Positions 7,050-46,324 of a DNA stretch of 64,000 nt are shown here, piece after piece. This DNA is from Bolinopsis microptera (Eukaryota > Ctenophora > Tentaculata > Lobata > Bolinopsidae): NCBI RefSeq assembly GCF_026151205.1, contig NC_087079.1, forward strand, positions 1,638,028-1,702,027, in the 5' to 3' direction. The notes under the pieces were generated by a model, which was not told the origin of the DNA, ran no database searches, and saw only the letters and a program-made list of their open reading frames with translations. The stretch's first letter is position 1. Each line of letters opens with the position of its first letter. A program made the translations under genes and the position numbers.

Positions 7050-10000
7050 TCAAACACCACCACATTCGATGATTTTGAAGAGTTTTTCAACGTCACCCTG
7101 TTTGATAGCACTTCGGCAGGCTGTTACAACTTGAGTTTTAGGTTTTCCTACCCTCAGACGTCCTGCTTTCTGAATACCCTGGGAAATAAATAAAACTTTA
7201 TAAATTTATATTGTATAATATTAATTTAAAGTATCGAACTGTTAAAGTGCTCTCCAATTTTTCTTAAAGAAAAATAAGCCGGATTCCGAAGAATGGATAG
7301 TGGCATGGATACGTCTAATTTTTAGGGTATATCTTCAAAAAGAATAATTTAAAATGCTGCTTTAACCTGATTGACAATCTTGAGACAGGCGAGTAGCTCG
7401 GAGTGATTGTTACAACGAATATTGTAACCGTTTACAAGATCCCTGTAAGAGAGGAAGTTAAAAATAATATTTCGCAGGGTTTCCATAAAAATGTTCTGAC
7501 CCAAACTTCTGCATCTAAAGAGAAGGCTCCGATTCTCATATTGATGATACTCTAGCTGCCCAATGGGACAGCACCGCGGACTGTGTTCCTTGACTAATAG
7601 TACCGTCCCTGATTGGTCACCAAATAGCACGTGACAAGATCGTTGATCGTGATTGGTGGCCATAGTATTGGAGTGATACAGGTGCGGTTTCCATTGTTAC
7701 GAGATTCGAGCACTTATTATACTAAAATAGGGAACGCTTCTCTTCAGGAAGACAATGCGACATAAAAAGAGCTCGCCGAGTGACAAGATCGCATTTTAAA
7801 GTTATTATAAAGGCAGATCTCAGGGACCTACGAGAGCATGGCGAGATGCTTATTAATAGATCCTTCCTTTCTCTGGTTCAATAAAAACAACAAATCTACC
7901 ACGGGGAGATGGGCCAGAGTGGAGCTTTTATTCGATTAATTGCACAAATAAATACCAAGGGATTCTCTCACAACAGTTCTGTGTCATGAGGATAGGTAAA
8001 AGCTTTATTAAGATTATAAATAGTAATCGAGGATTGCAGTATTTTAAGTTCAGATGATATTTTAACAGCTAAGTATTGTCATGGCGACGTGATGTCCATA
8101 TCCACTTTACATCCATTACCAAAGTACTGATCTCTACCCAGGAATGTGATGTGTTGTTTTAAGTGCTCCAGAGAGTTATTTCCAACCTATTTTACTTTTT
8201 AAAGGACATTCTACAAATAAATACCAATTAACCCCCTTTACAAGAGCAGCCTCAGATATACAATATAGAATCAGTTAAGACGTTGGTAGGATATGCAGTT
8301 GTACCCCGAAATAATGTGCCCAGGGTAAGTGACCATCAATACCATTAATCCGCTACTAATGAACAACAGTATCTTGATTTAGGATAATATGACAAAATAA
8401 TGTGTCAACACTACACAGTCTAGACCCTAGTGCGTTGTCCTTCAGCGGAGACAGGATTACTGGGTTAATTTTCTAGCATTTTCAGGTGCTTTCATATCTT
8501 TAACACTATATCCGGTGGTCTATTGCATCTTTAACCCCATCTTTAACAGTTCGACTGTCCGATTTTAAAATTACATAATATTGTCTCCAGATAGACTCAA
8601 CTGAAATCGTCAACGAATTAAACTCTAACCTGTTAAGATCGTATAACTTGAGATAACTCTGTTTCATACTGTTCATGTCGTTCATGAGGCGCGCGTCCTC
8701 CGCACGTACCACCAGACTCCGGATCAGATTGCTGTGGTCTGCCATCTCTGCTGTAAGCTTCTGTCGGACGTTGTGATACTCGTCAACTTTAACCAGTACC
8801 TGATGTAAGATGGGATTAGCAACAAGCTCTAGGTTGTGGAATATGAGAGATTTATAAAATGGCGTGTTGGTAATAACTGAGACATTATGGCACAGATTTC
8901 ATGGTTAAGCTATTAACTGTAAACGGGGAAACAGGTAAATATTATATAAAGCACCTCTTTAAGCTTCTCAATAAAGTCGGGGAAGTTGGCGGTGGATGTC
9001 ATGTTCTCAATATTAAGAGAGGCAGCTAGAGCCTGTACTATATCCCCAACCAAGTCAATATCCTCACAGTGTATCGTTATTGTACCTGAGCGGATCCGAG
9101 TTAATTCGTATTAGCGATCTTAAAAGCTTAAATGAGGTGGCGGTAAAATCATAAATAGTTTAATCTTGTCTCAGTGGAGCGTTTTTTAACCACCACTTCA
9201 CACATTATATCATTAAGTCAAGTAACAGGCAAAACACAATGTAACTCCCGTGACTAGCAACTGCGGAGTGTAGTTCTGTAGCTGTCAACTAAAAATCAGA
9301 ATTCATAAACTGCGTATGAATTTAAAAGTTTATATTAAAGTTCGTATTAAAGTATTAGCACAACTTTTACAATAATTGGACATTAAATCGGGGAAAGTAA
9401 AATAAATATTCCTGCTGCCAACTTAATTTGTCTCTCAAAATACTTCCAGTGTCTCTCAAAATGCTTCCAGACACGAAAAGTGCGCATTATCTAAATTGCA
9501 TAACTAAACTATTAACCTGGAACCATGTGGAGGAATATTGGACATCCAGTTCTCAGCGCCATCAGTTTTAGATCAAGTTCCGTGTCAGCAGAAATCTGAG
9601 GTATTTAGTTAAGATATTTTGTAAAATACAGCTGTTTAATCACACGTTTGTATGATACTGACAATTGAAAACATTATTATTAAGTCTATTGAGATGGGAG
9701 GTGGGATGAAACTTGAAATAAAGTACGCTTGACAGTCATATTTCTAGTTGGTGATATTAATTATTGCTCTGCTTTGAATACAACTATTTTTGCTGCCATT
9801 TTTTGAATATTTCGTGTGGTCACAGGACGGTTTAAATGCACGTGCAAATAATCGCGCGCAACACACAAAACACACATGCACACAACACTCTCGTGCAGTG
9901 CAGTGCTACGAACTCACTGCGCAAACCTCCTCGTCCAGCAGGAAGTTCTGATTAATCCACATCACCACCCGGTTTATCCGCTCGTTGACCGGGAAGGAGA

Positions 10001-13000
10001 CAAAAGATTTGGGCTTAGCGGTGTTAGTGGGAGCCTGGATGTAGAGGGTAAAGCGAGGGAGCTGGCGGGATAGCTCAAACACGTGGTACTGTGAACTGTT
10101 CTTGTGCCTGAGGGAGGTGAGTCAGAACACGTGGTACTGTGAACTGTTCTTGTGCCTGAGGGAGGTGAGTCAGAACACGTGGTACTGTGAACTGTTCTTG
10201 TGCCTGAGGGAGGTGAGTCAGAACACGTGGTACTGTGAACTGTTCTTGTGCCTGAGGGAGCTGGCGGGATAGCTCAAACACGTGGTACTGTGAACTGTTC
10301 TTGTGCCTGAGGGAGGTGAGTCAGAACACGTGGTACTGTGAACTGTTCTTGTGCCTGAGGGAGGTGGGTCAGAACACGTGGTACTGTGAACTGTTCTTGT
10401 GCCTGAGGGAGGTGGGTCAGAACACGTGGTACTGTGAACTGTTCTTGTGCCTGAGGGAGGTGGGTCAGAACACGTGGTACTGTGAACTGTTCTTGTGCCT
10501 GAGGGAGGTGGGTCAGAACACGTGGTACTGTGAACTGTTCTTGTGCCTGAGGGAGGTGAGTCAGAACACGTGGTACTGTGAACTGTTCTTGTTACTGAGG
10601 GAGGTGGGTCAGAACACGTGGTACTGTGAACTGTTCTTGTGCCTGAGGGAGGTGGGTCAGAACACGTGGTACTGTGAACTGTTCTTGTGCCTGAGGGAGG
10701 TGGGTCAGAACACGTGGTACTGTGAACTGTTCTTGTGCCTGAGGGAGGTGGGTCAGAACACGTGGTACTGTGAACTGTTCTTGTGCCTGAGGGAGGTGGG
10801 TCAGAACACGTGGTACTGTGAACTGTTCTTGTGCCTGAGGGAGGTGAGTCAGAACACGTGGTACTGTGAACTGTTCTTGTTACTGAGGGAGGTGGGTCAG
10901 AACACGTGGTACTGTGAACTGTTCTTGTGCCTGAGGGAGGTGGGTCAGAACACGTGGTACTGTGAACTGTTCTTGTGCCTGAGGGAGGTGGGTCAGAACA
11001 CGTGGTACTGTGAACTGTTCTTGTGCCTGAGGGAGGTGGGTCAGAACACGTGGTACTGTGAACTGTTCTTGTGCCTGAGGGAGGTGGGTCAGAACACGTG
11101 GTACTGTGAACTGTTCTTGTGCCTGAGGGAGGTGGGTCAGAACACGTGGTACTGTGAACTGTTCTTGTGCCTGAGGGAGGTGGGTCAGAACACGTGGTAC
11201 TGTGAACTGTTCTTGTGCCTGAGGGAGGTGAGTCAGAACACGTGGTACTGTGAACTGTTCTTGTGCCTGAGGGAGGTGGGTCAGAACACGTGGTACTGTG
11301 AACTGTTCTTGTGCCTGAAGGAGGTGGGTCAGAACACGTGGTACTGTGAACTGTTCTTGTGCCTGAGGGAGGTGGGTCAGAACACGTGGTACTGTGAACT
11401 GTTCTTGTGCCTGAGGGAGGTGGGTCAGAACACGTGGTACTGTGAACTGTTCTTGTGCCTGAAGGAGGTGGGTCAGAACACGTGGTACTGTGAACTGTTC
11501 TTGTGACTGAGGGAGGTGGGGTTGGGTCAGACTTGGGAGTAGGAACTGAGGTATCTTGGGATCTTTTATCTTTTCTCTAGGCGTGTAGTATTAGCTAATG
11601 GGTACTGAGCAATTAAAAATATCTGTAACTCCTACAAGAGAGTTTTGTAGTTATTACATCTGTCAGCACGTTGACAGACACAATGTCGAGGTTCGTGACT
11701 GCTGAGTGTCATCAGATTCACTTAGCTAATGGTAGATATATAAGTAGTGTCACGTGGGTGAGGTTAGGGCATCAAAATGGTTTTAGGCGAACCCTTTTAG
11801 CACTTGAAGTGCTAAGTGCTCAAGATAAGATCCAATAATGAAACTCAAAGTAGCGTTAAATATAGAAGTTAAATGTCGTATGACCACAAGTTCGTGACAA
11901 TTCGTTTTCATCCCCATTAGAGCATGCTCATTGATCCGGGTAGACTCACATTACGATTTGAAGAAGTTGACGATTCATTAACTTTTAAGTGATTCCCAAG
12001 TAAGTGCCCATTCTCTCCATCATAATAAAAAGACCCACCATTAGCCGAAAATCAAACCAACTTACCCGACGAAAGTCTTGACATGTAAGTCAATGGGGAC
12101 GTCTTTAGGCGGGAATATAGGGACACTGAGAGCGGAGGTGATTCCACTGGAAGGTGGGTGTACCACGTGACTCTCTCCGTTAAATATCCCTTCGGCAAAT
12201 ATCATTACTGCCTGAAATATATGGATATGTTACTGTCTGAAATATGTATTTATAGATTACTTTAAAATACATACTAAAATAGTTAACAGCTAGTTAAGGG
12301 GGCTTCATGAAAATTTTCTCGAAATCAACTTTTTAGTTATTTCTAATAGAAGGGAGTGATATCTATCAGCTGCTTTTGATCACATCGAAAAACATTGCTG
12401 GTCAAAGGTTAGCGCTCACGGGTAATTGTGTTGCGCGGTCTTTGAGGTATTGGCCGTCAGATCAACAAATACAGCTGTTAACGATAACTTAGTTCTTCAA
12501 TGTAGAGTGATATTAAGAAATAAATTCATATACATCAGTTACACAACCAAATTACCATCAGGTACACAGTACACCGCGGTTTGGATATTTAGTACAGTAA
12601 AACCCCGATTTACCGCGTAGTTTGGGGGAAGGTCATTTCCAAAATGGTTAGAGGGTAACTAGGGTAGCTATATATTGAGTGATATTTTTAATTGAGAAAT
12701 TTAACGAATTATTCTTGTAGATGTTTAATAGCTTATTTTTGGTTGTTTTCTTTGTACCGTTTCAAACTCTATACATTATAAAGTTTACCAATTTCTTGCC
12801 TCAACCATTTACTACTTCCATATGATTGCGTAATATAAGGATAAAACATGGTGGAAGCAGTAATCGACCGGGATTCCCGGCGCCGTGAAATCCCGGCACC
12901 GGGGGAGCTATTTCTTCCCGGCCCCGGCCCCGGCCGATTTTCAATTTTTGCCGGGAATTTGGCCGGGAATTTTTGATCGAAATCGGCCTAAAACTTTCAT

Positions 13001-16000: not shown

Positions 16001-19000
16001 TCCTGGCAAGGGAGAATGCTATTTGGGCTCTATCGCTTTTATGTCTATCTTTATGCAGTCTTATTTTCTTGCGCCATGCATCATAGCACTCTGAGTCAAA
16101 CCATGGATCTTGTCCATCTGTCTTAACTGAGCATTTCTTGATGAATTTGTCAGTGATATTAAAAAGTTTTTCTTTAAATTTTTTCCACCCAATTTCAGGT
16201 TCTGTGCCATTAAGCAATACATTCCAGTCTGTGTGCCGGAGTTCATGGTTTAACCTCTCCCAGTTCACGTTTTTATAGTTATAGCACATACGCTTAACCG
16301 GCTTCTTCCTATTTACCTTAATGTTGATCTTAAAGTTAAATAATTGAACTGCACGAAAAATTAAATCTATGGTACAGTTAAACCCCGATTTACCGCGGAG
16401 TTCGGGAGAAAGAAATAGGCGCGGTAAATCGGGGTTTGCGGTAAATCGGGGTTTTACTGTATAACTTATCAGTAGCTCGCGCGCAATGTTTAAAATTTAA
16501 ATACTTGCTGGTTCGGTGGCGTTAGTTGTATTGATAAGAAGTTGCACGTGCACGTACCTTGATAACGGTGGTGTTAGTGGTATTGATAAGAAGTTGCACG
16601 TGCACGTACCTTGATAACGGTGGTGTTAGTGGTATTGATAAGAAGTTGCACGTGCACGTACCTTGATAACGGTGGTGTTAGTGGTATTGATAAGAAGTTG
16701 CACGTGCACGTACCTTGATAACGGTGGTGTTAGTGGTATTGATAAGAAGTTGCACGTGCACGTACCTTGATAACGGTGGTGTTAGTGGTATTGATAAGAA
16801 GTTGCACGTGCACGTACCTTGATAACGGTGGTGTTAGTGGTATTAATAAGAAGTTGCACGTGCACGTACCTTGATAACGGTGGTGTTAGTGGTATTGATA
16901 AGAAGTTGCACGTGCACGTACCTTGATAACGGTGGTGTTAGTGGTATTGATAAGAAGTTGCACGTGCACGTACCTTGATAACGGTGGTGTTAGTTGTATT
17001 GATAAGAAGTTGCACGTGCACGTACCTTGATAACGGTGGTGTTAGTGGTATTGATAAGAAGTTGCACGTGCACGTACCTTGATAACGGTGGTGTTAGTGG
17101 TATTGATAAGAAGTTGCACGTGCACGTACCTTGATAACGGTGGTGTTAGTGGTATTGATAAGAAGTTGCACGTGCACGTACCTTGATAACGGTGGTGTTA
17201 GTGGTATTGATAAGAAGTTGCACGTGCACGTACCTTGATAACGGTGGTGTTAGTGGTATTGATAAGAAGTTGCACGTGGGAGGGCATGCTGTCCGTTTCC
17301 GTGGTGACTTGTAAGGAAGTCTGTAGTTGGGTGTTAGCTGGGATAATGCCCATGTGTTGGCCGTCTACGTCGGTTGTAGCGCTCAGTTTCAAACCTCCAA
17401 CCTGTGTGATGGGGTAGAAGTGAGGGAAGATCACTGATCAGGTGAACGAAGTTAACACCCAACTCAAAAACTAAATATTATATTGTTTTAAAAATCATAA
17501 TAAATATTCATTAACTTAAATCGTAATAAACATTGATTAACTGGATGATTGGTTATGGTAATCTACGGATTACAATTGGGCCACAACACAACTTTCGTTA
17601 CACATTATAAAGCTAAAATTATGAACTGACCTCCTTTCCTGCTTTGGTGTTCTCACTGTAGTTCTTAAGTTCTAGGAGCAAGTTGTTCTTCCTCTGCGCT
17701 AGTTCTCTGACCAGGTCTTGTTCTGCATCATTATCCATCAGGTTGTGGGACGAATCCTTGTTGGCGGGAGAGTAACCTCGAACCTTGAGATAGAAGTGTT
17801 ATGACGTCATGACTGAACTGGTCATGAGAAAATGATAACGAAATTATTGATATATTCAACCGCCACATAGCCACATGACTGAATAGTGAATGTTGTTCTT
17901 TCGTTTGACCGTGTATGTGATAATGGTACTATTATTAGTCAAATAGGTTTCTCTTAAAACCACAAAAACATAATTTGAGGTCATAACACCTCAGATGGTA
18001 GAATATACCACCAACTTCAATCTGAAATCTAAAAATAATCAGACGGCCAACCAGATGTCCAGCCACGATATATGGTTGGCACTGAGCCACACGTGACACG
18101 CACGTGACAACACGTGACAACACGTGACTAGTACTCACCTCCCCATCCACACTACAGGTAATGAGCTGTTTAGTCCCGTCCCGCCTGTAGTCGCCCTCTA
18201 CGATGCCAGCCACTGCTGAACCAAAGTTATCTTTAAACACTACCTGGGGGAGGAAACCTTTAGCTATTTCAAAGCGGGGGTGAGGGTAGAAAGATGGTGC
18301 AACTTGCTGAAGATAATTAGAAGATAATATTTAACTAACCATTACCATTTTTACAATTCCACTAAATAATTTTTTTTCTGAGTCTGAAGGCGTCCAATCG
18401 ATGTTCAAATTACCTAGTTTTAAAAATTTAAGGTACCAGTCTGTTTTAAGGTATTGTTCTATCGCCAAACTATTAAACCACCACGAACAAGTTTAGCCCA
18501 CGTGACCAGCACGAACAAGTTTAGCCCAGGTGACCAGCCCACGTGACCAACACGAACAAGTTTTGCCCACGTGACCAGCACATACCTCTCCGTTATGGCT
18601 ACTCCTGGCATCAAGTTTACCACTACTCCACCCCGTGATCAGCTCCGGTACTCCGTCTCCGTTCAGATCATACGAGAAGATGGACACCGCCTGGTTCTTG
18701 GACTTGATCCTCCAGAAGCGTGAGTTACGGTCGTACACTCCCACTGTACCGTTAGCTAGAGCGTACCTGTTGTAGGTCAGGTAAGGAATGTGGCGTGACG
18801 AGATATATCTCTGGTTATTAAACGTGTACCAATACCAACACGCACAATGCAAAATATTATGGATGGAACTAGTAAAATGCCTGGTATTCCACGACAAATC
18901 CAGAACCCATCCAGAATTTCCAAACTCTAGCGACAGCTCCGTGACTGAAAGTATAATCTGCTATCTCATTGTATCCACAGTAAACTTACCCGAACTTGCT

Positions 19001-21496: not shown

Positions 21497-22753
21497 CACG
21501 TGACTCAAAGATAACAGAGATCAGATAACAGAGATCAGATAAGACAGCTTATTCCATATCTTCCTACAAACCAAACAGTTGGTCATTAACAAATATCTTG
21601 ATAAAATATGACTCAATTGCACTATAGTTTGAAATTTAATGTATTTATAGAGTTTTTCGCTGATAACGTCGCGTCTTGTATTGACATTCTGTCTAGCAGC
21701 AGTCAATTTCAATGAACGCCCATCATATTGGGTTTGACGGAGCTTAAGATTGCTTAATAACATGACTAGGTCAGACTTTTCCGACTTTATCAGAAACTAA
21801 AATACAAAACTTGATCAGACGAGATCTTATAAATTGCTCAACAATGTTAAGTTCCACACGCACGGCCACTAACAGCAGATATTTTATACCTTGATGGCTA
21901 TAATTAGAATAATTCCACGCACCTCCTATACTCACATATTTTCATATACTCACATATTTTGGACATTCCGCCGCTTTTTTAAGCTCAAACTGACCACTTC
22001 ACTGTTCACACGTTTTTTATCACACCTCCACACACTATTTTGAACTGTAAAAATGTCATGCTCTTAATATTCAAATAAAGCAGACTTTGAATTCTGTGAA
22101 AGTCTTATAAATTTATACAATACATGATGTGTTAAATTTTATAATGCAATATTATGCAATAAAATGAATAAATACAATTCGTAATACTTTATGACTTTAT
22201 TAGGTACATAATTGTGACATCTGTTAATGCCCGAATTACCGCCCCAACTACGATACATTTTTCTGCACTGCAAACCCTACAGCTATATAAAATGTATAAA
22301 ACTGACGTGTCAAGACATACCAACTGTGAAAACACCAATAATTGGCATATTAATTAGTAACTCAGAAGTGGTAATCCACAACTAATTCAATAATTGAAAT
22401 AATGGAATAACGTTAAGTCAGTCAATTTATAAACTCATCAAATCATTCAAATTACCACCCCATATAATAATAGCATAATTTTTACAATTGTGCATCGAAA
22501 CTGTGCCAATATAAAAATAGAAATGAGCGATAAATATCGATACTGAAAGCCAGAAAAATGCTCAAAAATGCTGTCATATAATAATTCTTTGATAAACCAA
22601 TAAATATCTTAGATAAAAACGTATGATTATGTACAATAAAAATACCTTTACAAGAGCTGAAAATCTGAAACAAAGGTGACAAAGTGGCTAGCGACAAAGC
22701 GGCTAGTGACAAAGCGGCTAGTGACAAAGCGGCTAGTGACAAAGCGGCTAGTT
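21497..22753. promoter_or_regulatory. Intergenic space between IQCB1 3' end and BBS2 start
   Basis: This 1.26-kb gap must contain the IQCB1 3' UTR and the BBS2 promoter. CACGTG (21497-21502) touches the BBS2 start codon, and a 14-bp ATAACAGAGATCAG duplication lies at 21513-21540 in the 5' UTR. A possible IQCB1 poly(A) signal (AATAAA on minus, 22201-22196) is about 550 bp past the stop. I see no X-box here. Confidence 0.5.
22682..22752. repeat. 16-bp repeat directly after the IQCB1 stop codon
   Basis: About four and a half copies of a unit read on plus as CGGCTAGTGACAAAG, beginning right at the end of the IQCB1 coding sequence (TGA at 22756-22754) and running into the 3' UTR. Confidence 0.9.
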
Positions 22754-34700: not shown

Positions 34701-37700
34701 TTTTTTGAAGAGTTACAATATATCAGTGCGAAGTAATTAGAAATATTTGGGAGCGCAAGTCAGTATTCAAGTCTGAGATCAAGTCACACAAGCATACAGC
34801 GATGCAGTCATGTCAAGTCACATTATATAATATGTAAGCATACAGCAGTCATGTCAGTACAGTTTAGGAAAAAATAAAGCAGTGAAAATATTCAGTACAC
34901 ACCTGACGGCAGAGATTTTCCCTTCTCGTTTGAACCTTCCGAATATTAGCCTGATTCTTCCTGTACTTTAAATACATATCTTGTGACTTCAAAACCAGCT
35001 TTTCCAGCTGAAACATTGTTGTGTCAAATGTGTTTAAAAACACACGTAATAAAGCACAGTGCCATAATACACGATAAATTACGAACAGTGCTGTAACTTA
35101 TCTGGTTTACTGGGTCAAGTTACTGAAGGATAATCTATGTAATTCACTGTGTAATTCACTGTGTTTAACAAGAAGCCTGTGTATTATGTTATATTGTAAT
35201 ATTATTATGTTAAAGGCCTTTCTTTTCGATGATTTACTGGTCTTACTGTGAGAAGAATTTTCTCATCAGAGGTATTGAAAGTTAGGTATTAGCATTTTAG
35301 CACTGTAGAATAACATTTACAATGTTATATAATATGGGTGGAGCACAGTTTATAATTTCATTAACAATGATAATTTATCATCTTATCACTTCATCATGCA
35401 GCCATTCTCTTATTCCATCCTTTAAATGGCGTGACAACAAATTACAAAGTGAGGAAATTCATGATATGATATGAGCTTAAAATATTGATTACTTAGTCCG
35501 GTGTTGTAATAAGATGTGGCAAATCTAAAAAAGGGATAAACTGAGGTAAAATCTAAAGTGGGGTTAACGGAGGTAAACGGTTCTCTATCCAACAATCTTG
35601 TAATTTATCTGGATACTCGCGACCAATCAATTTCCAGCATGTGAAGTATTGACCAATCAAATCCCAGGATAACTGTCACGTGTCAAACCTAACATGGTTC
35701 ACCCTCTGTGTTCAGATATATATATATTATATATACACAGAACTAAACTCTAAAACTTTGGTAAACTGTGTAAGTTTAAAAGTTGATAAGTAGAAACTAA
35801 CCTCTTCCTCGCCCTTCTGCTCCCCTTCCTCCAGCTGGTTAAGCTTTTGTACTTTACTGTTGAGCTCCCTGACCTTGTCTGCAGTTAAACCCGGGGGTAA
35901 CAATCCTGTGCTACTGTAACTAGCTCCAGTCCTGAAGGTGTAACATATCGGTAATAGAGGGTAATTAGAGGGTAACATGAGTTCTGTACTACCGTAACAG
36001 GTAACTACGCGTGTCGTCACCATGGTGATAGCCGATAGGTGTTTATAACATGCCCCTCACTTTACCTGTAAAGACGATACTGTCTCTGGATTGAGACAGC
36101 AGCTCTGGTCTGTTCTCTGTGTTTCCTCATCTTCTCTACCTCCCTCTTCGCACTGTAACCTCTCCAGCTGGCCTGTATTTTACTAGCAGCTGCACTTGCC
36201 ACCTGAGATTAATTAATTAATTATTCTCTCCATAAATATTATTTGCAGAAACTCTTGGGATAACTCATGCCAAATTTCCATGATCCACTTCTCTGTTCAC
36301 TTCATGTTCGATAAAGTTTTAGGAACTACGGATTCTTAATACTCTACCCTCAGGCTTCATTGCAGATATGCAGGTTATAAAGTATTTTATAAGGTATTTC
36401 AACACTTCAACAGTATACCTGGGCCTAGAAATGCAAATATTTGAACCCAGCCCCAAGGTGCAATTAATCAAAACATTCCCAGAGCTCTTTTCATTTTACT
36501 GTAACACCTCCACAAATATAATGATAGTAATATAAATCACCCCGAGTGTTGTATAGACTAGTATGTGTTAAACACAGCTGAAATTGGCTGGTAAATATGC
36601 CACCACGCAAAACAGCATTACGCCTATAGTTTCGCAACATGGTTACCATGGCAACATGCACGTTTTCACACAGTATAGGTTAAAAGTTGTCTCACTTTCG
36701 GGCGTGCTTAATTGGGGTTAATAATGCAAATGGTTATTGTTTCCAGACATGGGTTGATCGCTTTTGATGACGTCACTTTCAACTTTGACTGTGAGTAGTT
36801 GATGTTTATTAAACAAAACAAAGGTCACGTCATGTATGACGAATCATCCAGATCATCCAGATCGCAGACAAAAACCTTTTGAACTGCTAACCTACTGCCC
36901 TGGTTGATCAGTGACGTAAGACGTTTAGATTTCTTTAAAATTCGAAGAGAAAGTTACCAACGTAAATTTCAAAGCACTTAATGAGTTAATGCCTCTACGA
37001 AAGAACAGCCCTCTTGTTCTTTCATTCGAGGACGAATAATCACAAAATTACACATAACTGACATCGCGTGTCAAATCATACTCAACAGCTAGCTGATATT
37101 ATGATCATAATATAATGCTCAATAGCTAGCTGATATATTATGATCATAATATCATGTTCAACAGCTAGTTGATATTATGATCATAATATCATGCTCAACA
37201 GCTAGCTGATATGATCACTACCAAAAACTCTGTTACAAAGTGTTAACTCTTTAATAATCTAAAGTGCTGATCTCAGTGCTAAAATACACGTATAGTATAT
37301 TAGTAATGACGTATAGTACTACATAATGATTGTCGCTGTATATTGCGTATACAGTGTGTCCACATGTCTGGATTCAGTCTAAATCACTTGTCATGACAAA
37401 AATTAACACTTTGTACACTACTATTATAACTACGCTAAAACATGTCATTCGGCCACGTTTTGTAACACCAAACTTCATTGTTTAACATTACATTTGAAGG
37501 GATCGTGCGTGTAACCACGTGTCAAAAACCACATCCTTACTGTTTAAACACTGCTAGACCACGACAAAATACCAGACTGTAAATAAAACAGTCATACTGC
37601 AGAAAACCTTCGTTATTTTGCACTCCCGTGGTGTTTAGCTTTCACAAATCACTGGTTACAATAATACACAGTACAGGAAAACCCCGATTTACCGCGGAGT

Positions 37701-40700
37701 TAGGGGGAAAAGGAAACATCCGCGGTAAATCGGGGTTCGCGGTAAATCGGGGTTTTGTTTGTTTACACTATGCATGTTAAGCCCTATTTGGGGGAAGGAT
37801 ATGTCCACGGTAAATCGGGGTTTGCGGTAAATAGGGGCGCGGTAAATCGGGGTTTTAACTTTTACTGAACTAGTACCCATCTTGATAAAATACACACTTT
37901 TATTGACCATAGTCTCAAATGAAAGCTCTACCTTACCACATACACTGTAAAAAGTAACAAAAAACTTCACATTGTGCAGCTGTTATAATGTTAATAAGGA
38001 GTTAAAGTTTCTCAAATCACAAGTGTAATAATATAATGCAGCTCAGTACACGTCTTGATAAAATACACACCCTCACGACTCACATAGAACTGACTGGAAT
38101 GTCTCGAATGTATGTCACAGAGGCACGTGAAGCATGTAACTATTGTAACTATTTGGCTCACTGTAATCTAGCGTGGTAGAGTGAAGACATACTAGAGCTG
38201 TGGTAAACCGTTAACCGACACAATAATCACTGACATTGGTAGACAATAATCACTGACATGAGTAAAAGATAAAACAATAGTAATTGTCTTCCTCGTGAGG
38301 CAGAGCAATTGTTAAGATAATAGCTACAATAATAATATAAACAAGACGTGGTCCGATATTTGGAGGTATTTGAGGCTGGTTATAATAACATAGCAGGAGG
38401 GGAAATGATTTTCTGATTTAACTGTTCATTAATTAGCTAATTAGTGAACATTTAATTAGCTCATCAGCCAATTAGAAGCTCTAATACATACCGCCCACAA
38501 TTAACATTATCATAAGCAAAAGATAATTAAATAATAATAATTAAAAACGAGAAGCCAGACTCAGCTCCGTAGAATTCCACCGAATTAATATTACAGTGGA
38601 ATTAGGATTGGGATCAGGGTTAGACTTATATTATATGGGCGATTTCACGTAAAGTAAATTACACTTTGCACAAAAATTTGGCCTTATTCTGACTCTCAAG
38701 CATTACACAAACATAACAGAATCATGATAAATTGCATGAAACATCTCTTATGTACTCCACACACAGCTATATTAAGATTTTTACTCCAACTGCTATGGCT
38801 TTTGAGTGAGGCACGTTTGAAAATGTAAAGTAAATTACAGGGCACAAATTGACATTCCTGACCAACGTGTATTGAAATCTCATTTCGTGCCCAGGTGTGA
38901 GAGTAAACATTTAAATATTTTTCATGCACACTGGCAAATGTCTTGCCTGTACTGGAAAGGGTTTGTTTTGGTAAATAGTTAATAGCTGTGTTCTGTAGAA
39001 GCCTTTGTTCCTTGTAAAGTAAGTTACTCTTTTGTGTCAAGTAGTTTACACTGTTACACAATCCTTTGATTTTAACTGTTTAAAGCTGCCCCTTTGTCTT
39101 TAATTCGTTTGCTAAGTGTATGAACTATGTAATATATGATTAATAATGATATATCAGTTTATCATTAGCCAATTAAGGGGGCCGGGGGGGCCTTCATCAA
39201 AATTTTCTCGAAATTGACTTTATAGTTGTTTCTAATAGAGGGGAGTGATATCTATCAGATGCTTTTGGTCCCATGGAAAAATATTGTTCCTAGACGAAAT
39301 TATTATCGGTCAAATGTCAGCGCTTATGTGTAATTGTATTGCGCGAGCGATTTTCAATTTTTGAAAATCTTGGACCTCAAAAAATCGTCAAAAAACGAGG
39401 TTCAAGATTTTCAAAATCGAATAAAATATGTTTAAAGGCCTATCTCAAAATTCTGTTTGGCTCATCTCTTTTAAATTATCTCTAGAACATATCCTGAAAG
39501 TTTCAGGGTGATTGCTCAAAACATGTAGGAGAAAATAGATTTTTAGACTCGATTTTCAGGACACGTGATTGAAATTCGCTCGCGCAATACAATTACACAT
39601 AAGTGCTGATCTTTGACCGACAATAATTTCGGCTAGGAATAATATTTTTCCATGGGACTAAAAGCATCTGATAGATATCACTCCCTTCTATCAGAAACAA
39701 CTAAAAAGTCAATTTCGAGGGAATTTTGATGAAGACCCCCCGGCCCCCTTAAGCCCTTAATTGGTTGATTGATCCACTGATTGGGTCCACAGTTAGCCCA
39801 GTTATACAGAGTAGGTAGATGGGCGTAAATGTACGAATGTTTCCCAGCTCAAAAATTTGTGTTCAAGCAGGCCACTGAATTTTCTGTAAAGTAAAGTATT
39901 ATTTATATTATATTTTCGAAAAGTCAATTTTTAACCATTTTAAACCATTTTTATAGATTTCTTTAATGAAATTCTGACCAGAACCAATCTATTATCACTT
40001 TTAAATAACTTTTATTCTGTTTGACAATCGTTACTTGTTGTGTTTTACTACTATTACTGAATAAAAAGCATATGTGTAAATTACTTGACACGTAAATTAC
40101 TTGACATGTAACTTACTTGACGCTGGTATTGACATGATCTGATATCTATGGATCTAAATAAACAAGTACATTATGTCTTGACATCAGAATTAGCTTGTTT
40201 TAGCAAGATTTCAGCAAGAAATAACATGAAATGTGGCCAGCAGAAAACTTTTTTGTTTTTTATGTATAGTAATTTACACTAAAAACAGGAGAAAGTAGAA
40301 TAGCATTGCTCAGAATCTGCTTAAATTTTGAGTCCCAAATTTTGCATACAGCTTCAGTGAAGTGGTATGCACCTTTACAGATCAAGAATTAATGAATATT
40401 ACAACAATCTCTTTTTAGTAAACAGCTTTTATTATAGAGTAGTTTTAGCCTGTAAAACATGACAATTTATGGGTATTTTGAAAACGCGATAACACAGAAA
40501 CGAAGTGAGATATTTATAAGCGGTTTTTTGTGTCTAACAGTTTATAATCTTCTCTTTCAGACTCCAATCAAAGCTAGTGCCATAACTGAAATTAATTTTT
40601 TCCCTCCTTGTTCATGTTTCATGAAATTGCCCATATAGTGTTCGATTATAGGGTACTAGGCGTATGATATATTTCTGTAGAATTCTACAGAGCATAGAGC

Positions 40701-43700
40701 TGTGTTGGGCCTCTTGGATAATGGATAATTAAGTGCACATGAGCATAATATATAATATATAACATATAATAATACAATTGATCAACTACTAAACCAGACT
40801 CTAATTACTTCTAGGTAGGTACTATTTCTAAAATGAATATTGAGTACACTGACATGTTATATAATATAAATAATATCACTAACCTCATGTTGGTGCGATG
40901 GTATCTTGCTGGCTGGTATTGTACGGAGCTTGCTCGCCTCTTCTTGTAGCCTGGTTCTTCTCCTCTCACGTGCCTGAACACAAGGTAGTTACCATGGTAA
41001 CCTGGTGTATACTGTATAATGGAACATGTTGAGATCCAGCAAGCTCTTATTGATATGGTGTCTCACAAAAACGAGCGAATATTTAAACTGAGTCAATTAA
41101 TTTCCTGTCCAACTTAAAGTTGAGGCTCAACTGAACCACATTTAGTTACAGCAATGGGCTTACTTTGTCTGTAATTGCTCTTAATTTCATAATCTTTTAG
41201 TATTTCTGTGGCACTAAATATGAGATACATATTTAAAGCTCCAACTATCCAACAAGTCAACCAGTAAGAACAAATGTTCCTGAATTCAAATGTAAAATAA
41301 AGGGCAGCTATTTTCGTTCGCACCTTTCTCGATGACAGCTCTTTTTCTAACTCTGTATCCTTTTCCTCCTCCTCCCTCTCCTTCTTCTTCTTCAACCAGT
41401 CCCTGAACTTTAGCTGGAACTTGCTGATACGCTGGGAGTTGAGGCGCAGCTCCCTCCGTGTCACGTAACCTCTGTAAAACGCTTGTATTTTCGTGGCAGA
41501 GGAGTCTAGACGCGCCTTTTCTGCTTCATCTCTTCTCAGTTTGTCAATATACCTAAAGAATAATTGTTTGGTTAAAACGAATTATGGATATTGTAATTAA
41601 AACCGTTTCCTCATTTAGCTGATGATAACTACTAATGAGCACCTGGGCTTAAATAAATATTTAGTTCAAAACGAAATTATTTAAGTTTACGTTTAGTGTA
41701 AAGTAGACAATAGTATTTGAGTAATTATTATCAAAGACGTTTCGAGTTATTTAATATGTAGGCAATACGGCAACTCTCTAGTTTCTACTGTCTGCTGCCT
41801 CCGATACCGGTAAACGGTTACCATGGTAACGTGGTGTAACCTGAAATGTAGTTACCATGGTAACAAGTTACACCACGTTACCACGGTAATTGGTAACGTG
41901 GTGCAACTTATAACACCGTTACCATGGTAACATGGTGTAACTTATAACGCCGTTACCATGGACACGCAGTATTTACAGGTAGGAACAGTGGTGACAGTAA
42001 ACTAACCAAACTGTCAAGAACAATTGAATTGGACTGAACAGCTGCCCTGTACAAGTGTACACAAGCTCTTACAACAGTCTACAGTACGCGTAATTATTAC
42101 TGGCACTTGTACAAGTTTACATCATAGCTCTATCAGGAATCTGTGTTGAAGTACTGTGTACCTCCTAAACTGGGATAATACCACACCAACCACTAGTTTT
42201 ACACGTGGTGGAATATAGGGTTAAACTTTATCCGCCATTATATTACCCCATTATCCTTAACAGTATGGTTACCCGAGAAAATGGAGGACAATCAACGTTT
42301 TACACCTATTACTATCACGGTGCAGGACACTGTATCAGACATCCTGAGCTACTTGCCAGTGATTTAGTCTTATGGGAACCTATGCATGGTACAGCACAGC
42401 AAGGCCAACCAAAACAAAGCTACTTGTCTATAATACTGAAGGAAGTTGGGACAAACTCTAAAGAGGAACAGCAAACCCTGATGCGGGACAGGGATATATG
42501 GAGGGAATTATCTGGAGTAGATCGGACTTAGTTCCGACATAGTAGTAGTAGTACTATCACAGTGATATGATCGGTTCATTAAATAACTTTAGTAACTTTA
42601 GTAACTTTAGTAACTCACTTGAGTAGCATGTTAATGTTATCGTGGGCACCGGGAGCTGTGTTGATAACCTCCAACAAATCCACAACCTCTTCTCCGTTCT
42701 CCAGCAGTATACTCTGAACATTTATGAATTAGACTCATAATTATATTTAATTAGATAATAATGATAATTGGGATCATATTATGATAATCGATGAATTATG
42801 ATAATAGTTAGCAATGCAAATGTATTATTGAGTGTGAGAATTAACCATGCGTATCTTAACACGTGTCTTAAGACTGAGAAAATACAAACAACTTGAGAGG
42901 GGATTCTTGAAACAGATAAATGATAGCATGGTAGCAGGAGCTTTCGAAATACAAATTTGGAAATATCGTCTTCAACTAACTCAGTAACTCTGAAAGGTTG
43001 GTGCCGTTTAGCAGCCTGATAGAAAATAAGAACTAACTCTGAAAGGTTGGTGCCGTTTGGCAGCCTGGTATAAAATAAGAACTAACTCTGAAAGGTTGAT
43101 GTCGTTTGGCAGCCTGGTAGATGACATCAGCTCCAATCTGTTGTAGTGCCGGAATATCTTGTTCTGTCATCTTCAGCATTACTTCGTCAAATATCACCTG
43201 TAGTTAATGGAAACTTTTAATGAAGGTAATTATGATTTTAATCAAGGTTATTATACACTTGAGAGTTACAGCTCATGATGACTTCATGGCCAGTATGATT
43301 CGATTATCTGCAGCAAATTCTTGCAGACACAATCAGTAATGTGCAATAATTTCAACAGACTTCTATTCGTTAGTCGAATAGTCCTAGCAATAATATGAAA
43401 ATTAAAAAACGCTGTTTCTCAAAATACCTTAAACTGAGTATATTAGCATAATAGATAATACCTTAGTTCCCAAAAAATTGTGTGCCATTATATTGAGCAC
43501 AATTTATTTGAGCCCGAAAAATTTGGGCAGAAAATTTGAACTCATTTGGGCGACCGAAAATTTGGGCACAAATTCTTCGAAAAATGAACGATTTTCCACT
43601 AAAATTTCAGTTAGATATTTGCCTTAGTTCATTATTATTCCTTATTATTCCAGTCATTTTGCTTTCAATTTTAAGCATGTAGGTGATAGTCTGAGTTGTT

Positions 43701-46324
43701 TCACATTATGAAATTTACGATCTGCCCAGTAACTACTAAAAAATACAGTGATGATGGCACAGTACAAAATGATAGATATACAATAGTGATATTTAGTCTC
43801 TCTTTAGCCCCTGGACTGGCTAAGAAATTCATGCGCAATAAGTACGAAGATTGGTACCGAAAAACATAGTGTGTCAGCTCAATGGAGGAGTTTCATCAGA
43901 CAATGTGAAAATTGATATCTGCTTGACAGTGATCCGTGAAGTACACGCTCGTTGGATCAACGAACTTTTTGTATATTTAAAAGGGAAGCCAGATGACATA
44001 AGGAAAGGCTTTGAGAAATCGCCAATCGGATATAACTGATGCTTGTAGATCAAACTTTACTGTGGATGATAATCCATTTGCAGATCTTGTTTAAATCTCT
44101 AGCTATCTGTACCTCTAGCCATTTGTTTTATAAGTAGCTGTTAGCTATTCCAGTTATTTCTATTCGCTTAAAATATAAGCCTTTTTACTTGGCCAAGCCA
44201 TGAATGACAGATTAGAAAACTAAAATTTCAAATATTATTTCACTTGGATATGAAGAAAAAGCCATCTTTCTATAGATTTCAGGGCCACAGGCCAAATGCC
44301 AAAAGTTTGGTTAGCAAAAAATTTAGCAGACGGAAAAGATTTATGCAATAAATTTGGTCTGCAAAAAATTTGGGCGAGAGGCCCGCTCAAATTTTTGGTC
44401 GCCCAAATTTTTGGGAATTAAGGTAATATTATATATAATAGATAATATGAGATGTAATAGTAACTTACCAGAAGTTTATCACGTTCAATGTAGTACCGTG
44501 CAGCAGTAGATTGGGTCAGCACTACTCTCAGTAACTTCAATAAACACATGTCTATACCCACACTGCCTGTTAACATGGTTACTGTTAACATGGTTACTGT
44601 TAACATGGTTACTGTTAACATGGTTACTGTTAACATGGTTACTGTTAACATGGTTACTGTTAACATGGTTACTGTTAACATGGTTACCATTAACATGGTT
44701 ACAGTTAATATGGTTACTGTTAACATGGCTACTGTTAACATGGTTACCGTTAACATGGTTACAGTTAATATGGTTACTGTTAACATGGTTACTGTTAACA
44801 TGGTTACTGTTAACATGGTTACTGTTAACATGGTTACTGTTAACATGGTTACTGTTAACATGGTTACTGTTAACATGGTTACTGTTAACATGGTTACTGT
44901 TAACATGGTTACTGTTAACATGGTTACTGTTAACATGGTTACTATTAACATGGTAACTTACTCTCAGTCATGAGCATGGTAAGGAGTCTCGGGGACTCAA
45001 TGATGGTCTGTCCGAAGGAGGGGGAGTAGTCCACCAACCAGAACACACATTCCAGACATTGTCTGAAGTCTTCCTCGTCTGGAGATACAAGTCCTGGGGG
45101 TGATAGTCAGATTTGGATGATAAAAACGGCTTTAAATGTGATAACCATAGTAACGAGGTGATTCACAGGGTAACAAGGGGAATTAACAGGGTAACAGTGG
45201 TGATGGAAGCTAATAGAAATATCTTTCCCTAGAGGCTAGAACTATGTACTTTATTAACGCATTACGTAATCTACCAGAGCTACAGTGTGAGACCAAGGTT
45301 AATGGTTATACTGTTATCCAATTATGATTTATTAAATTTAACGAGGTATGATCGTCATCTTCTTAGAGCGTTTGATGTCTGTGTGAAGGTAAAATGGTGA
45401 CATCCCATAACTTTAGTATTGCTATACAACTACTACAGATTTATTAAATTGATTAAATGTAAACCATGCAGGCTCTCAACTAGGTGGTTGGTCAGGAAGT
45501 CAGGAATTTGATTTAAAATATTGATCAACCAAAACTAATATATAATATGGTCAGTGCACAGTTGGTGCATAATATCGAGCGAGTGTACTTAATGTTGAAC
45601 CTTGAATGTTATTGGCTAGTTCCATGAAACTATCGACCACCAAAGGGAGGAAAACACCAGAAAACTCCTGTGACTGAGTGAAGCCCATGCAGCACTTAGC
45701 TAGGAGAGTGCAGAGTTTAGTAGCCGTGCTCCAGGGCACCCTCAACCCCTCAAAATCTTGTTTTATCACATCTGTCATGGTGCTGGGGTGATGGAGAGAG
45801 ATGTAAGATTTATGTGCAATATCCTGCTTTTCATGGTATTGATAATATTGTTGAAACACTAATCACTATTTAATTACGGATATAAAACTTCTTGTCAGAT
45901 TATGGTCTGACAAAACCACAATTATCAGTTACTTAATAACCCTGAAGGTATCATGTCTCAAACGTACCTCATGATCTCGTTCTCCCAGAGCAGTGATCTG
46001 ATCTCCCTGTTATCATGCTGTTCCAGCAGCTGTTCTATCTGGTAGATTGGAACAGTAACAACTTCATTATCGATCATGATTTTAGGGGAGTTATTCACTT
46101 TACTTGTTAGTGATGTAGGATTCATCGCGGATATCATTGGATTTCAACAATATTCCCAGAACAAATAATAATTTATAACAAAATTGTAGATTTTAAGCTA
46201 ATTGAAAATTATGTTAAAGCAAGCAATAAGTTAAACAAACCTGTAAAAGTAGAGTTGGTATGTTGCTATCTCCCGCTTTAGACAGCTTGTACAAGAGAAC
46301 ATCAACCTCTTGTTTCGCAGCCAT
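22754..46324 (-). CDS. IQCB1: IQCB1 / NPHP5 (nephrocystin-5), complete 14-exon gene
   Basis: IQCB1 is a calmodulin-binding ciliary transition-zone protein that partners CEP290 and helps BBSome assembly. Coding exons (minus): 46324-46241, 46038-45968, 45782-45601, 45093-44962, 44566-44469, 43197-43087, 42713-42619, 41552-41324, 40973-40884, 36202-36066, 35931-35802, 35007-34903, 25121-24969, 22867-22754. They sum to 1731 nt, 576 aa (human 598), and all phases match. Evidence: NIPTLLL near 21-27; QDFEGLRVPWSTATKLC (about 63-79), matching the human QDYSRIQGGWTT segment; helical N-terminal half; IQ motif 1 ATKIQAFYRGYVTRREL (about 277-293); a highly charged helix (KKKKEREEEEKD); IQ motif 2 SKIQASWRGYSAKREV (about 371-386) and a weaker third (SIQRQYRLYR); acidic C-terminus. 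The exon 3 donor could instead be at 45589 (same phase, four more codons). Introns 4, 6 and 7 and the exon 13 acceptor carry tandem repeats, and intron 12 (9.8 kb) is full of transposons. Confidence 0.93.
23659..23667 (+). promoter_or_regulatory. TATA box of the nested secreted-protein gene
   Basis: TATATATAG lies 23 bp before the ATG at 23691. If it sets the start site about 30 bp downstream, the 5' leader would be only a few bases long. It may therefore drive a start slightly downstream of normal, or be a chance match in AT-rich DNA. Confidence 0.4.
23691..24089 (+). CDS. Small secreted protein with a CGF-type domain, nested in IQCB1 intron 13
   Basis: An intronless 132-codon frame. Met at 23691 is chosen because a signal peptide starts there (MRLLSCLFSLML, cleavage probably near residue 20). 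The mature part is about 110 residues with the core GCGFVSAPVVTAVLKG (about 67-82) and the end DVYWTANGFNC. From memory this matches a widespread but poorly named family of secreted marine-animal proteins that share CGF.xxP..xT.L.G and a C-terminal W.A.G(Y/F).C, often attached to collagen-like repeats; there is none here. Six cysteines lie in the mature part (CALTC, GCGF, RGCPS, DRCDV, FNC), so it is probably disulfide-bonded and extracellular. It sits on the strand opposite IQCB1, wholly inside the intron between exons 13 and 14. Function unknown. Confidence 0.75.
   Translation: MRLLSCLFSLMLTTPTLPLEVKILNTPDGKPHPPPCALTCSGISKYSDTGDYEWRGYHGQAYKRNNITGCGFVSAPVVTAVLKGYYTRGCPSVFIELSKETRFVVQTVEGATAGQMTKDRCDVYWTANGFNC
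24580..24690. repeat. 19-bp tandem repeat in IQCB1 intron 13
   Basis: About five copies of AAAAGGTGTAGTTCCTTAC, with a CACCTCTTTC end on both sides (24575 and 24680), so the array seems to have grown inside one CACCTCTTTCA segment. Confidence 0.9.
25128..25222. repeat. Repeat copying the branch-point/pyrimidine-tract zone of the IQCB1 exon 13 acceptor
   Basis: On the sense strand, blocks of CTCTAACAGAACCCCTCCCA occur four to five times and end in the acceptor CCCACTCAG of exon 13 (exon starts 25121). Each block carries a branch-point-like CTAAC, an AG and a C-rich tract. Confidence 0.8.
25223..28585. other. IQCB1 intron 12, 3' part, no gene seen
   Basis: AT-rich intronic DNA. The only structure seen is a two-copy 59-bp direct duplication at about 27300-27416 (CCTATCCTTGTGGTGGTCCT in both). 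The open frames here are short and not protein-like. Confidence 0.5.
28915..30676. mobile_element. Mutator-like (MULE) element with about 200-bp inverted repeats
   Basis: The left arm (about 28915-29125) and the right arm (about 30465-30676) match as inverted repeats for about 200 bp. Both start AAAGTAGGACCCTAGAGCGG, repeat a CTAGAGCGG word several times, and share CCCTTACCGGA, CATACTATGAGGAC and GGTACCCACATG blocks. Extra GCTCTACAGTCCTAC words follow the right arm up to about 30715. The interior holds a decayed transposase C-terminus on the minus strand. I see no clear 9-bp target duplication, so the outer edge is uncertain. Confidence 0.8.
29254..29790 (-). pseudogene. MULE transposase C-terminal fragment (frameshifted)
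   Basis: The minus-strand frame 29790-29461 reads LQVLFECGYVDLCTMHLAFL, then LNYFMTNWVQG, ARFPPQSWN, FNRKFAAMLGHSYPTIWTFL. This is the usual tail of animal MULE transposases (the YF..TY..G, PP..WN, HR.F...LG..HP.IW.F series). A second frame continues 29460-29254 (VYIEQSTTDEMMLKEGYGD, PAKRARQRTKDSRLAHLV) and ends at TGA 29256-29254. One frame break lies near 29461. The catalytic DDE core is absent and the N-terminal side decays beyond about 29800. The usual asparagines of the family's T.N..EG.HR motif are also changed. Non-functional. Confidence 0.75.
31237..31644. mobile_element. MITE with 17-G / 17-C ends and 6-bp target duplication
   Basis: Left end: 17 G then CCAAGTGGATATTTGTAGAT. Right end: the inverse, then 17 C. 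The exact direct repeat ATCATA flanks both sides (31231-31236, 31645-31650). The interior is two to three tandem copies of a block of about 125 bp with TTTTTTGTAGATAAATGTAG and AATTTCTGGGCACATATTTG. Non-coding. Nested inside the 3.4-kb composite structure. Confidence 0.85.
31971..34902. other. IQCB1 intron 12, 5' part
   Basis: Non-coding. Holds the 31-bp minisatellite (32060-32325) and a repeat near 34477-34590 in which ATGACCATTGTG recurs and TGACGTCA (a CRE-type palindrome) occurs twice. Nothing else recognised. Confidence 0.5.
32060..32325. repeat. 31-bp minisatellite, about 8-9 copies
   Basis: Units of GTGTGTTTTAGGGTGTTGTG followed by TCTGGTGAGAG, nearly identical with single-base variants. 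Contains TTAGGG once per unit but is not telomeric in pattern. Confidence 0.9.
36642..36655. promoter_or_regulatory. RFX X-box palindrome, IQCB1 intron 9
   Basis: GTTACCATGGCAAC fits the RFX consensus (GTTNCCATGGNAAC) at every position. RFX factors control ciliary genes in animals, but such sites are usually near promoters; this one is intronic. Confidence 0.5.
37075..37215. repeat. About 39-bp palindrome-rich repeat, 3-4 copies
   Basis: Units carry CAACAGCTAGCTGATAT and ATTATGATCATAATAT, each half a near-perfect palindrome. IQCB1 intron 9. Confidence 0.85.
37674..37868. mobile_element. Tigger/pogo-like foldback cluster
   Basis: Begins after TA with CAGGAAAACCCCGATTTACC and contains four inverse blocks (GCGGTAAATCGGGGTT-like), ending near TTTTACTG. 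It appears to be one MITE inserted in, or duplicated within, another of the family seen at 16375. IQCB1 intron 9. Confidence 0.7.
39177..39748. mobile_element. PiggyBac-like MITE (TTAA target, long inverted arms)
   Basis: TTAA stands directly outside both ends (39173-39176 and 39749-39752). The left end GGGGGCCGGGGGGGCCTTCAT is mirrored by the right end GAAGACCCCCCGGCCCCC. The arms are inverted over about 190 bp (GGGAGTGATATCTATCAGA, GCTTTTGGTCCCATGGAAAA, GTGTAATTGTATTGCGCG). TTAA is the hallmark of piggyBac insertion. No transposase inside. IQCB1 intron 9. Confidence 0.85.
40988..41001. promoter_or_regulatory. RFX X-box palindrome, IQCB1 intron 8
   Basis: Perfect GTTACCATGGTAAC, 15 bp inside the intron upstream of the exon 9 acceptor. 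Confidence 0.5.
41817..41965. promoter_or_regulatory. Cluster of RFX X-box palindromes in IQCB1 intron 7
   Basis: Perfect GTTACCATGGTAAC at 41817-41830, 41851-41864 and 41918-41931, with near matches at 41877-41890 and 41952-41965. They sit in a loose repeat of about 35-40 bp whose other half reads GTGGTGTAAC. RFX dimers bind exactly this palindrome and drive ciliary genes, including BBS genes, in worms, flies and mammals. The cluster could be an intronic enhancer, or a minisatellite seeded on a palindrome. Confidence 0.55.
42330..42531 (+). pseudogene. C-terminal tail of a non-LTR retrotransposon (relic)
   Basis: The last part of a plus frame (42205-42531) reads LASDLVLWEPMHG, GQPKQSYLSIILKEV, LMRDRDIWREL. 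LINE proteins commonly end this way (...RGRP..TY...L..D.G.....L...M.DR..WR). Only this tail remains, on the strand opposite IQCB1, in intron 7. Confidence 0.6.
42590..42618. repeat. 9-bp repeat at the IQCB1 exon 7 donor
   Basis: Three to four copies of AACTTTAGT end at the donor: on the sense strand GTGAGTTACTAAAGTTACTA. The repeat starts inside the splice signal itself. Confidence 0.8.
42985..43130. repeat. 49-bp repeat copying the end of IQCB1 exon 6 with its donor (3 copies)
   Basis: Copies start at 42985, 43034 and 43083 on the plus strand. On the sense strand each holds the last ~34 nt of the exon (ending CAACCTTTCAGA), the donor GTTAGT and a few intron bases. The exon-proximal copy differs from the other two by two bases in this segment (CGACATCAACC versus CGGCACCAACC). 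Using a later donor would add 49 nt and shift the frame. Confidence 0.9.
43461..44423. mobile_element. TA-flanked pogo/Tc1-type element, 963 bp
   Basis: Flanked by TA on both sides. Inverted ends CCTTAGTTCCCAAAAAATT and AATTTTTGGGAATTAAGG, with further internal inverted GGGCGACC...AAATTTGGGC blocks. It contains a short piece of transposase (next entry). IQCB1 intron 5. Confidence 0.8.
43851..44039 (+). pseudogene. Pogo-type DDE transposase fragment
   Basis: A 62-codon open stretch with IDICLTVIREVHARWI and IRKGFEKSPIGYN. It resembles the end of pogo/Tigger DDE transposases, where a (D/R)(I/L)..(S/T)(V/L)(I/M)(K/R).(L/V)HA.W(I/L/V) segment is followed by I..GF..(A/S)GI. The catalytic DDE residues are not in the fragment. 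It lies between the inverted ends of the TA-flanked element. Confidence 0.5.
44567..44958. repeat. 15-bp minisatellite filling IQCB1 intron 4 (about 26 copies)
   Basis: The sense-strand unit is AACCATGTTAACAGT. It begins next to the donor of exon 4 (GTAAGTTACCATG) and runs to the acceptor of exon 5 (TGTTAACAG). The 395-bp intron is therefore nearly pure repeat, and every unit offers a TTAACAG acceptor-like site. The long frames on both strands (44548-44973 and 44418-44951) exist only because 15 is a multiple of three. Confidence 0.95.

Follow-up and report, generated by a model that had tools for sequence, protein, structure and literature searches.

The window analyzed here, a stretch of 64,000 bp from the genome of the ctenophore Bolinopsis microptera, carries two adjacent genes on the minus strand, BBS2 and, as its upstream neighbor, IQCB1. 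The identity of BBS2 is certain: its spliced protein aligns with PDB 6vbu_2 over residues 1-737 of 739 (E 6.7e-269). The product of IQCB1 shows weak homology to the human protein and contains two IQ stretches recognized by Pfam. TRF returned 56 rows for the window, and all eight arrays that the sequence-only reading had assigned to exon borders of the two genes are present. The genes and arrays are as follows:

7050..21496, minus strand: BBS2 gene, 16 exons (spliced product compared with PDB 6vbu_2)
18477..18579, minus strand: 28/41 bp array at the BBS2 exon 6 donor, beginning after 6 bp of intron 6, purely intronic
18089..18128, minus strand: 10 bp array at the BBS2 exon 7 donor, beginning after 10 bp of intron 7, purely intronic
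16514..17278, minus strand: 52 bp array, 14.7 copies, at the BBS2 exon 9 donor (TRF, splice junction and copy count)
10078..11520, minus strand: 48 bp array, 29.9 copies, at the BBS2 exon 11 acceptor (TRF, splice junction and copy count)
24960..46324, minus strand: IQCB1 gene, 13 exons (several borders placed by eye; IQ motifs recognized with Pfam)
44567..44958, minus strand: 15 bp array, 26 copies, filling IQCB1 intron 4 from donor to acceptor (TRF)
42985..43121, minus strand: 49 bp array, 2.8 copies, at the IQCB1 exon 6 donor (TRF and exon model)
42584..42615, minus strand: 9 bp array at the IQCB1 exon 7 donor, beginning after 3 bp of intron 7, purely intronic
25124..25222, minus strand: array of about 20 bp units at the acceptor of the last IQCB1 exon, within the pyrimidine tract and 2 bp away from the exon, purely intronic

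Other genes of the window had been cited as array-free. These are known here as single open frames and are therefore weak controls: a TRP-like frame of 591 aa, two adjacent Ifi-6-16 (ISG12-like) frames on the minus strand (46934-47227 and 48063-48368; Pfam E 6.4e-10 for the former and 1.3e-5, under the Pfam cut-off, for the latter) and a frame of 315 aa, formerly taken for a GPCR, to which neither Pfam nor NCBIfam assigned a family. Intron 9 of BBS2 contains an 800-codon open frame (14097-16496, minus strand), which may encode a retrotransposon protein. A dispersed repeat lies at 30000-30400; 45 genome matches were listed, many of them 97-100% identical, which suggests a recent spread.

Arrays on the exon borders of BBS2 and IQCB1

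The initial claim that the arrays start at or inside the splice signal holds in the strict sense for three of the eight, which enter the exon by 30-45 bp (BBS2 exons 9 and 11, IQCB1 exon 6). The array of IQCB1 intron 4 occupies the whole intron, and the other four begin 2-10 bp away from the exon and are purely intronic. A weaker array near the BBS2 exon 3 acceptor is 15 bp off the border. An additional 19 bp duplication (1.9 copies, 44424-44460) was found 8-10 bp past IQCB1 exon 5.

The two large BBS2 arrays show the arrangement most clearly. Exon 9 ends at 17234, so that 45 exon bp lie inside the 52 bp array, whose unit combines exon end and intron start, ATCAAG|GTACGTGC. The exon is made by the first copy; beyond it, 13 more donor copies were recognized, all 13 with GT. 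Exon 11, in turn, starts at 10107, with 30 exon bp inside the 48 bp array; 30 acceptor copies were recognized, all with AG, and the coding one, which gives the homologous protein, is the last. As read from the sequence, use of an earlier acceptor copy in frame would lead to a TGA ten codons on. When the first donor and the last acceptor are taken, the BBS2 protein has zero extra residues relative to 6vbu_2 at both the exon 9/10 and the exon 10/11 junction and thus fits this choice, which suggests that the first donor copy and the last acceptor copy are those used in the cell.

In IQCB1, exon 6 ends at 43087, which places 35 exon bp inside the 49 bp array. The array of intron 4 (395 bp) begins 3 bp after the exon and reaches the acceptor, touching both splice signals without including exon sequence.

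Two short motifs recur in these regions. CACGTG occurs in all four BBS2 border arrays (18090-18121, 18499-18568, 10080-11479 and 16545-17273) and is also in excess in the rest of the window: with the two large arrays set aside and the two small ones counted, it occurs 32 times vs the 7.2 that base composition predicts. The palindrome GTTACCATGGTAAC has 786 matches in the genome vs 1 for its reversed control, and is partly tandem (window 41891-41961). It presumably resembles the RFX X-box of ciliary genes. A sequence similar in appearance to GTTACCATGGTAAC, namely GTAACCATGTTAACA, forms the 15 bp repeat unit in IQCB1 intron 4.

Donor and acceptor borders in a sample of introns

The sequence-only reading had argued that arrays scattered at random over tens of kb of intron would not meet borders so often. 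This was the wrong null, as the introns are mostly a few hundred bp long (median 226.5 bp in the first 158 introns of the sample described below) and arrays have to be collapsed to one unit. In introns this short a unit of 35-55 bp often covers a border, so that random placement alone often lands there. In our null, each array was therefore reduced to a single unit and placed randomly wherever it touched the collapsed intron. For the window itself (27 introns, 31 arrays), three arrays span an exon border vs 2.4 expected, and nine lie within 10 bp of either border vs 3.2 expected; by end, seven lie within 10 bp of donors and three within 10 bp of acceptors, vs 1.9 expected for each. These counts are biased because the window was chosen for its arrays, and in them some IQCB1 exon ends are 1-4 bp off and the start of BBS2 exon 14 is 27 bp off, the latter at an intron without arrays.

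We therefore assembled a sample of B. microptera introns independent of arrays, comprising 170 introns from 55 loci (57 were fetched) with 73 arrays. The introns lie between adjoining exon matches of kinesin, myosin, TCP1, dynein, G-alpha and tRNA-synthetase domains, and were accepted if the neighboring matches adjoined in the profile (gap -25 to 15) and the GT/GC-AG pair scored >2.8. For kinesin and myosin, 163 of the 182 listed exon matches entered, with single-exon, isolated and unfetched ones left out; for the other four families part of the exon matches entered. Counts for either border (96 introns, 158 introns, window) use the best-scoring TRF period, and the donor/acceptor split (170 introns) uses the shortest covering period.

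A general excess of exon-spanning arrays was not found in this sample: over both borders they number 6 vs 5.1 expected in the first 96 introns and 8 vs 6.8 in 158 (P 0.36). Eight of the 73 sample arrays reach into the exon and 65 stay out of it. Within 10 bp of either border, a limit that is one of five tolerances looked at in the first 96 introns (0, 1, 6, 11 and 21 bp), we counted 15 arrays vs 9.7 expected (P 0.033; 158 introns). This excess comes from the donors, and the border effect is thus a donor effect. In all 170 introns, 13 arrays lie at donors, in the exon or within 10 bp of it, vs 4.7 expected (2.75-fold, P 0.0003-0.0004), and four lie within 10 bp of acceptors vs 4.7 expected, so that acceptors are not depleted. 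A bootstrap over loci gave ratios of 1.55-3.89 for donors and 0.18-1.84 for acceptors. The test of array distance to splice sites proposed with the original observation, run here on the 170 introns, hence bears out the border excess for donors and not for acceptors.

Compared directly, donors and acceptors stand at 13:4 (two-sided P 0.049). At zero tolerance, exon-spanning arrays number seven at donors vs 3.1 expected (P 0.028) and one at acceptors vs 3.1; this 7:1 ratio has a two-sided P of 0.07, and with the window added it becomes 9:2 (P 0.065). Removal of two multi-array loci and two near-copies left a donor count of 8 vs 3.7 (P 0.024). When the last 45 nt of introns were closed to arrays, donors still stood at 13 vs 7.2 (P 0.010), and in the reduced set at 8 vs 5.3 (P 0.13). 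Six arrays have their start at 0-10 bp of the intron and leave the exon untouched, and the later 11 bp bins hold about one each.

By family, donor-edge arrays are distributed as 8 in 61 kinesin introns, 2 in 42 dynein, 1 in 35 myosin, 2 in 9 G-alpha, 0 in 20 TCP1 and 0 in 3 tRNA-synthetase introns. Kinesin and dynein genes thus supply 103 of the 170 introns and account for 10 of the 13 arrays; a tilt to kinesins is visible, and there may be one to ciliary genes. The phenomenon is not confined to ciliary genes, since donor-edge arrays also occur in G-alpha, myosin and DDX1 genes.

The further donor copies are largely intact. In eight donor arrays (the IQCB1 exon 6 array being left out of these counts), all 109 recognized copies have GT, and for 106 of the 109 the score equals or exceeds that of the true donor. 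A copy was recognized if it had no more than three mismatches in the 14 bases around the donor, so these figures leave badly decayed copies uncounted. Of nine unit lengths, eight are not multiples of 3.

Two kinesin genes on contig C13 share the same junction sequences and differ in one intron: in L001 it is 1062 bp long with three arrays (1193-2254), and its counterpart in L002 (1079-1200) is 122 bp long with none listed. They may form a young pair, which would allow the growth of the arrays to be dated. The kinesin donor-edge array at L019 (2290-2911) is built of a 21 bp unit, TTACCATAGTTACACTACTAG. On another contig, at L055, a near copy of this unit immediately precedes the exon, and dispersal of some units is therefore possible. 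Two AT-rich donor-edge arrays at L070 (1030-1063 and 1825-1962) lie in neighboring introns of a single G-alpha gene.

The genome (264.65 Mb in 232 contigs) was also surveyed with patterns of three copies of an 8-mer spaced 26-56 bp apart, the same pattern read backwards serving as the control. The donor motifs AGGTAAGT and AGGTTTGT gave 1426 matches vs 12 backwards and 1090 vs 199, and the acceptor motif TTTTCAGG gave 369 vs 90. AGGTAAGT and TTTTCAGG are about equally frequent at true sites (5/158 vs 6/158), and in the overall sequence (301,751 bases, both strands) TTTTCAGG is the commoner (70 vs 13). TGTTCAGG, intended as a second acceptor motif, gave 1133 matches vs 140 backwards, above the count of AGGTTTGT. 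Matches of this kind are not arrays, as a single array yields many of them, and some of the places closely resemble others. Among the matches listed, AGGTAAGT marks seven array places, up to 14.1 Mb of contig C1; TTTTCAGG marks two on C1 and then two similar ones on C3; and TGTTCAGG marks seven on C1, four of which read CAG|GT and may be donors. TGTTCAGG was for this reason dropped as an acceptor test and lends no support to a donor bias. The patterns show that donor-motif arrays are many; for a donor bias, the comparison of AGGTAAGT with TTTTCAGG speaks in favor, and TGTTCAGG does not.

From the 20 donor-like places among the matches listed (seven of AGGTAAGT, nine of AGGTTTGT and four of TGTTCAGG), 14 were picked and fetched. 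One of them, found via AGGTTTGT, has a firm exon: the first coding exon of DDX1 (39 residues, PDB 8tbx, E 3.8e-13) contains the start of an array of 51 bp units. By Pfam alone, its peptide gave no more than a chance match. At three places Pfam matched weakly and below its cut-off (Sushi 0.0024, Reprolysin 0.0091, DZF_N 0.013), three have an open frame only (L056, L060, L065), two lie largely inside the array (L058, L064) and five gave no convincing exon (L054, L057, L062, L063, L066). Not every donor-motif array is thus shown to lie at an exon. For TTTTCAGG, two of the four places among the matches listed were fetched; one has a weak match to MFS_1 (0.039) and the other has none.

Origin of the arrays

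The sequences show the anatomy of the arrays, the intact decoy sites, the donor bias in the sample and the occurrence in several gene families. We consider it probable that the arrays are mirages, a class known from amphioxus, i.e., ordinary tandem duplications that cover a junction or start at a donor in a minisatellite-rich genome and are tolerated if the outermost copy makes the correct exon. Pieces of some 10-65 bp are often duplicated in the B. microptera genome, and with short introns junctions would often be covered. A duplicated junction piece would then expand and homogenize as any minisatellite does, surviving on the condition that the outermost copy, the first of the donors or the last of the acceptors, is right. 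A donor duplicate would leave the exon, the donor and the reading frame of the first copy intact, the further copies being transcribed later; as the correct donor would be transcribed first, identical donors behind it should be harmless. At an acceptor, decoys would precede the true site and be purged more often, which would give the asymmetry between the two ends. The sequence-only reading had offered selection that tolerates the copying of a whole splice site as one possible cause, and this fits well. We infer selection as the cause of the donor bias, and likewise the mechanism by which the duplications arise.

Some observations sit less easily with this account. Selection alone predicts few acceptor arrays and not an excess at donors, and within 10 bp the acceptors show no shortage of arrays (4 vs 4.7), only the exon-spanning ones appearing few (1 vs 3.1). 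Published amphioxus mirages occur at both intron ends, as far as the excerpts of the source describe them (PMC3087553). Moreover, the six arrays that start 0-10 bp inside the intron are unexplained by selection for an intact site, which leaves room for a mutational preference for donors. Donors would then be hot spots: nicks or breaks at co-transcriptional structures such as R-loops or U1-bound nascent RNA would be closed by a fill-in that leaves a tandem duplication, which would later expand. The persistence of the excess with the acceptor-near zone closed (13 vs 7.2, P 0.010) and the peak of array starts 0-10 bp past the donor (6 vs about 1 per 11 bp bin) argue in this direction, as do the exon-spanning two-copy duplications of the sample, three of three at donors (L004, L021, L050), whose TRF spans exceed two full units by 0-1 bp, as in fill-in and not long homology. 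Yet the numbers are small, L019 and L070 hold 5 of the 13 cases, and the excess is weaker in the reduced set (8 vs 5.3, P 0.13); we regard such hot spots as a tentative and somewhat unlikely explanation. Its furthest extension is also unlikely: the 5' splice site itself would seed tandem duplications, donors would be a recurrent birthplace of minisatellites genome-wide, with thousands of introns carrying rows of identical donors, and the spliceosome would always take the first, so that the arrays would record both transcription-linked DNA damage and first-come-first-served splicing.

Pure chance, with borders covered at the random rate in a minisatellite-rich genome of short introns, agrees with the exon-spanning counts over either border (8 vs 6.8 in 158 introns, 6 vs 5.1 in the first 96) and is at odds with the donors taken alone (13 vs 4.7, P 0.0004; at zero tolerance 7 vs 3.1, P 0.028), and we judge it unlikely. 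The arrays could also be functional, e.g., in regulated splicing or in the spacing of ciliary genes, as the 109 of 109 recognized decoy donors with GT and the share of kinesin and dynein genes (10 of 13 donor-edge arrays, from 103 introns out of 170) might suggest. However, young near-identical copies remain intact without selection, use of an inner donor would shift the frame for eight of the nine unit lengths, and similar arrays occur in G-alpha, myosin and DDX1 genes, all of which makes a function very improbable. Tandem arrays are known to be prone to misassembly, but no sign of this was seen; the copies differ by substitutions and the arrays lie at many separate loci on large contigs, so that an artefact is hardly credible.

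The arrays offer a natural experiment on splice-site choice: in rows of up to 52 near-identical donors (52 in the kinesin locus L012), the true donor lies at the upstream end, and the sites are of equal strength and differ by position alone. If the inner donors are never used, this would argue for first-come or exon-definition choice; if they are used, it would show how repeats make new exons. A donor bias, if genome-wide, would help to separate a mutational from a selective cause, and would turn mirages from a lancelet curiosity into a trait of minisatellite-rich genomes.

Mirages and related systems

The sequence-only reading knew of no described class to which such arrays could belong. One exists: in amphioxus globin genes, minisatellite-like duplications of intron-exon boundaries have been described and termed mirages after the Adh3 gene (PMC3087553). 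According to the excerpts consulted, they occur at 5' and 3' borders, are unstable in length and give a regular mRNA, splicing being undisturbed (PMC3087553). In amphioxus PGBD5, repeats of 60 and 108 bp lie over splice sites, and troponin C is mentioned as well (PMC3902484), so that the mirage genes named in these excerpts are Adh3, troponin C, the globins BflGb6 and BflGb9, and PGBD5 (PMC3087553, PMC3902484). Our literature search, conducted mostly outside subscription journals and on partial texts, yielded no mirages outside lancelets, no genome-wide count and no donor bias.

Two other known systems are related. Introns can be gained via tandem duplication of AGGT-bearing exon segments (PMC4974935), and this resembles our case in that a short tandem duplication copies the splice signals. 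As far as the consulted part of that work goes, the outcome there is a new intron inside an exon (PMC4974935). Here the duplication occupies one edge of an intron and leaves the BBS2 protein unaltered. With ordinary intronic minisatellites the B. microptera arrays share a mostly purely intronic position (65 of 73 in the sample), and they differ from them in that the donor-edge arrays start within the splice signal or beside it in excess of the random rate.

As in mirages, both the window arrays and those in other genes are tandem and minisatellite-like by TRF; the unit spans the boundary in three of the eight named arrays and in 8 of the 73 of the sample, and stays inside the intron in the four intronic ones. 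Judged by the available excerpts, the common features are a tandem unit over an exon-intron boundary, at donor or acceptor, with many copies keeping the signals. Units of about 10-160 bp are a common feature as well. Regular mRNA is reported for amphioxus, and the alignment of the BBS2 protein suggests regular splicing here. The arrays described here differ in their occurrence in a ctenophore, in several gene families and in up to 52 copies, as well as in the donor bias, none being stated for amphioxus in the excerpts of the two papers (PMC3087553, PMC3902484).
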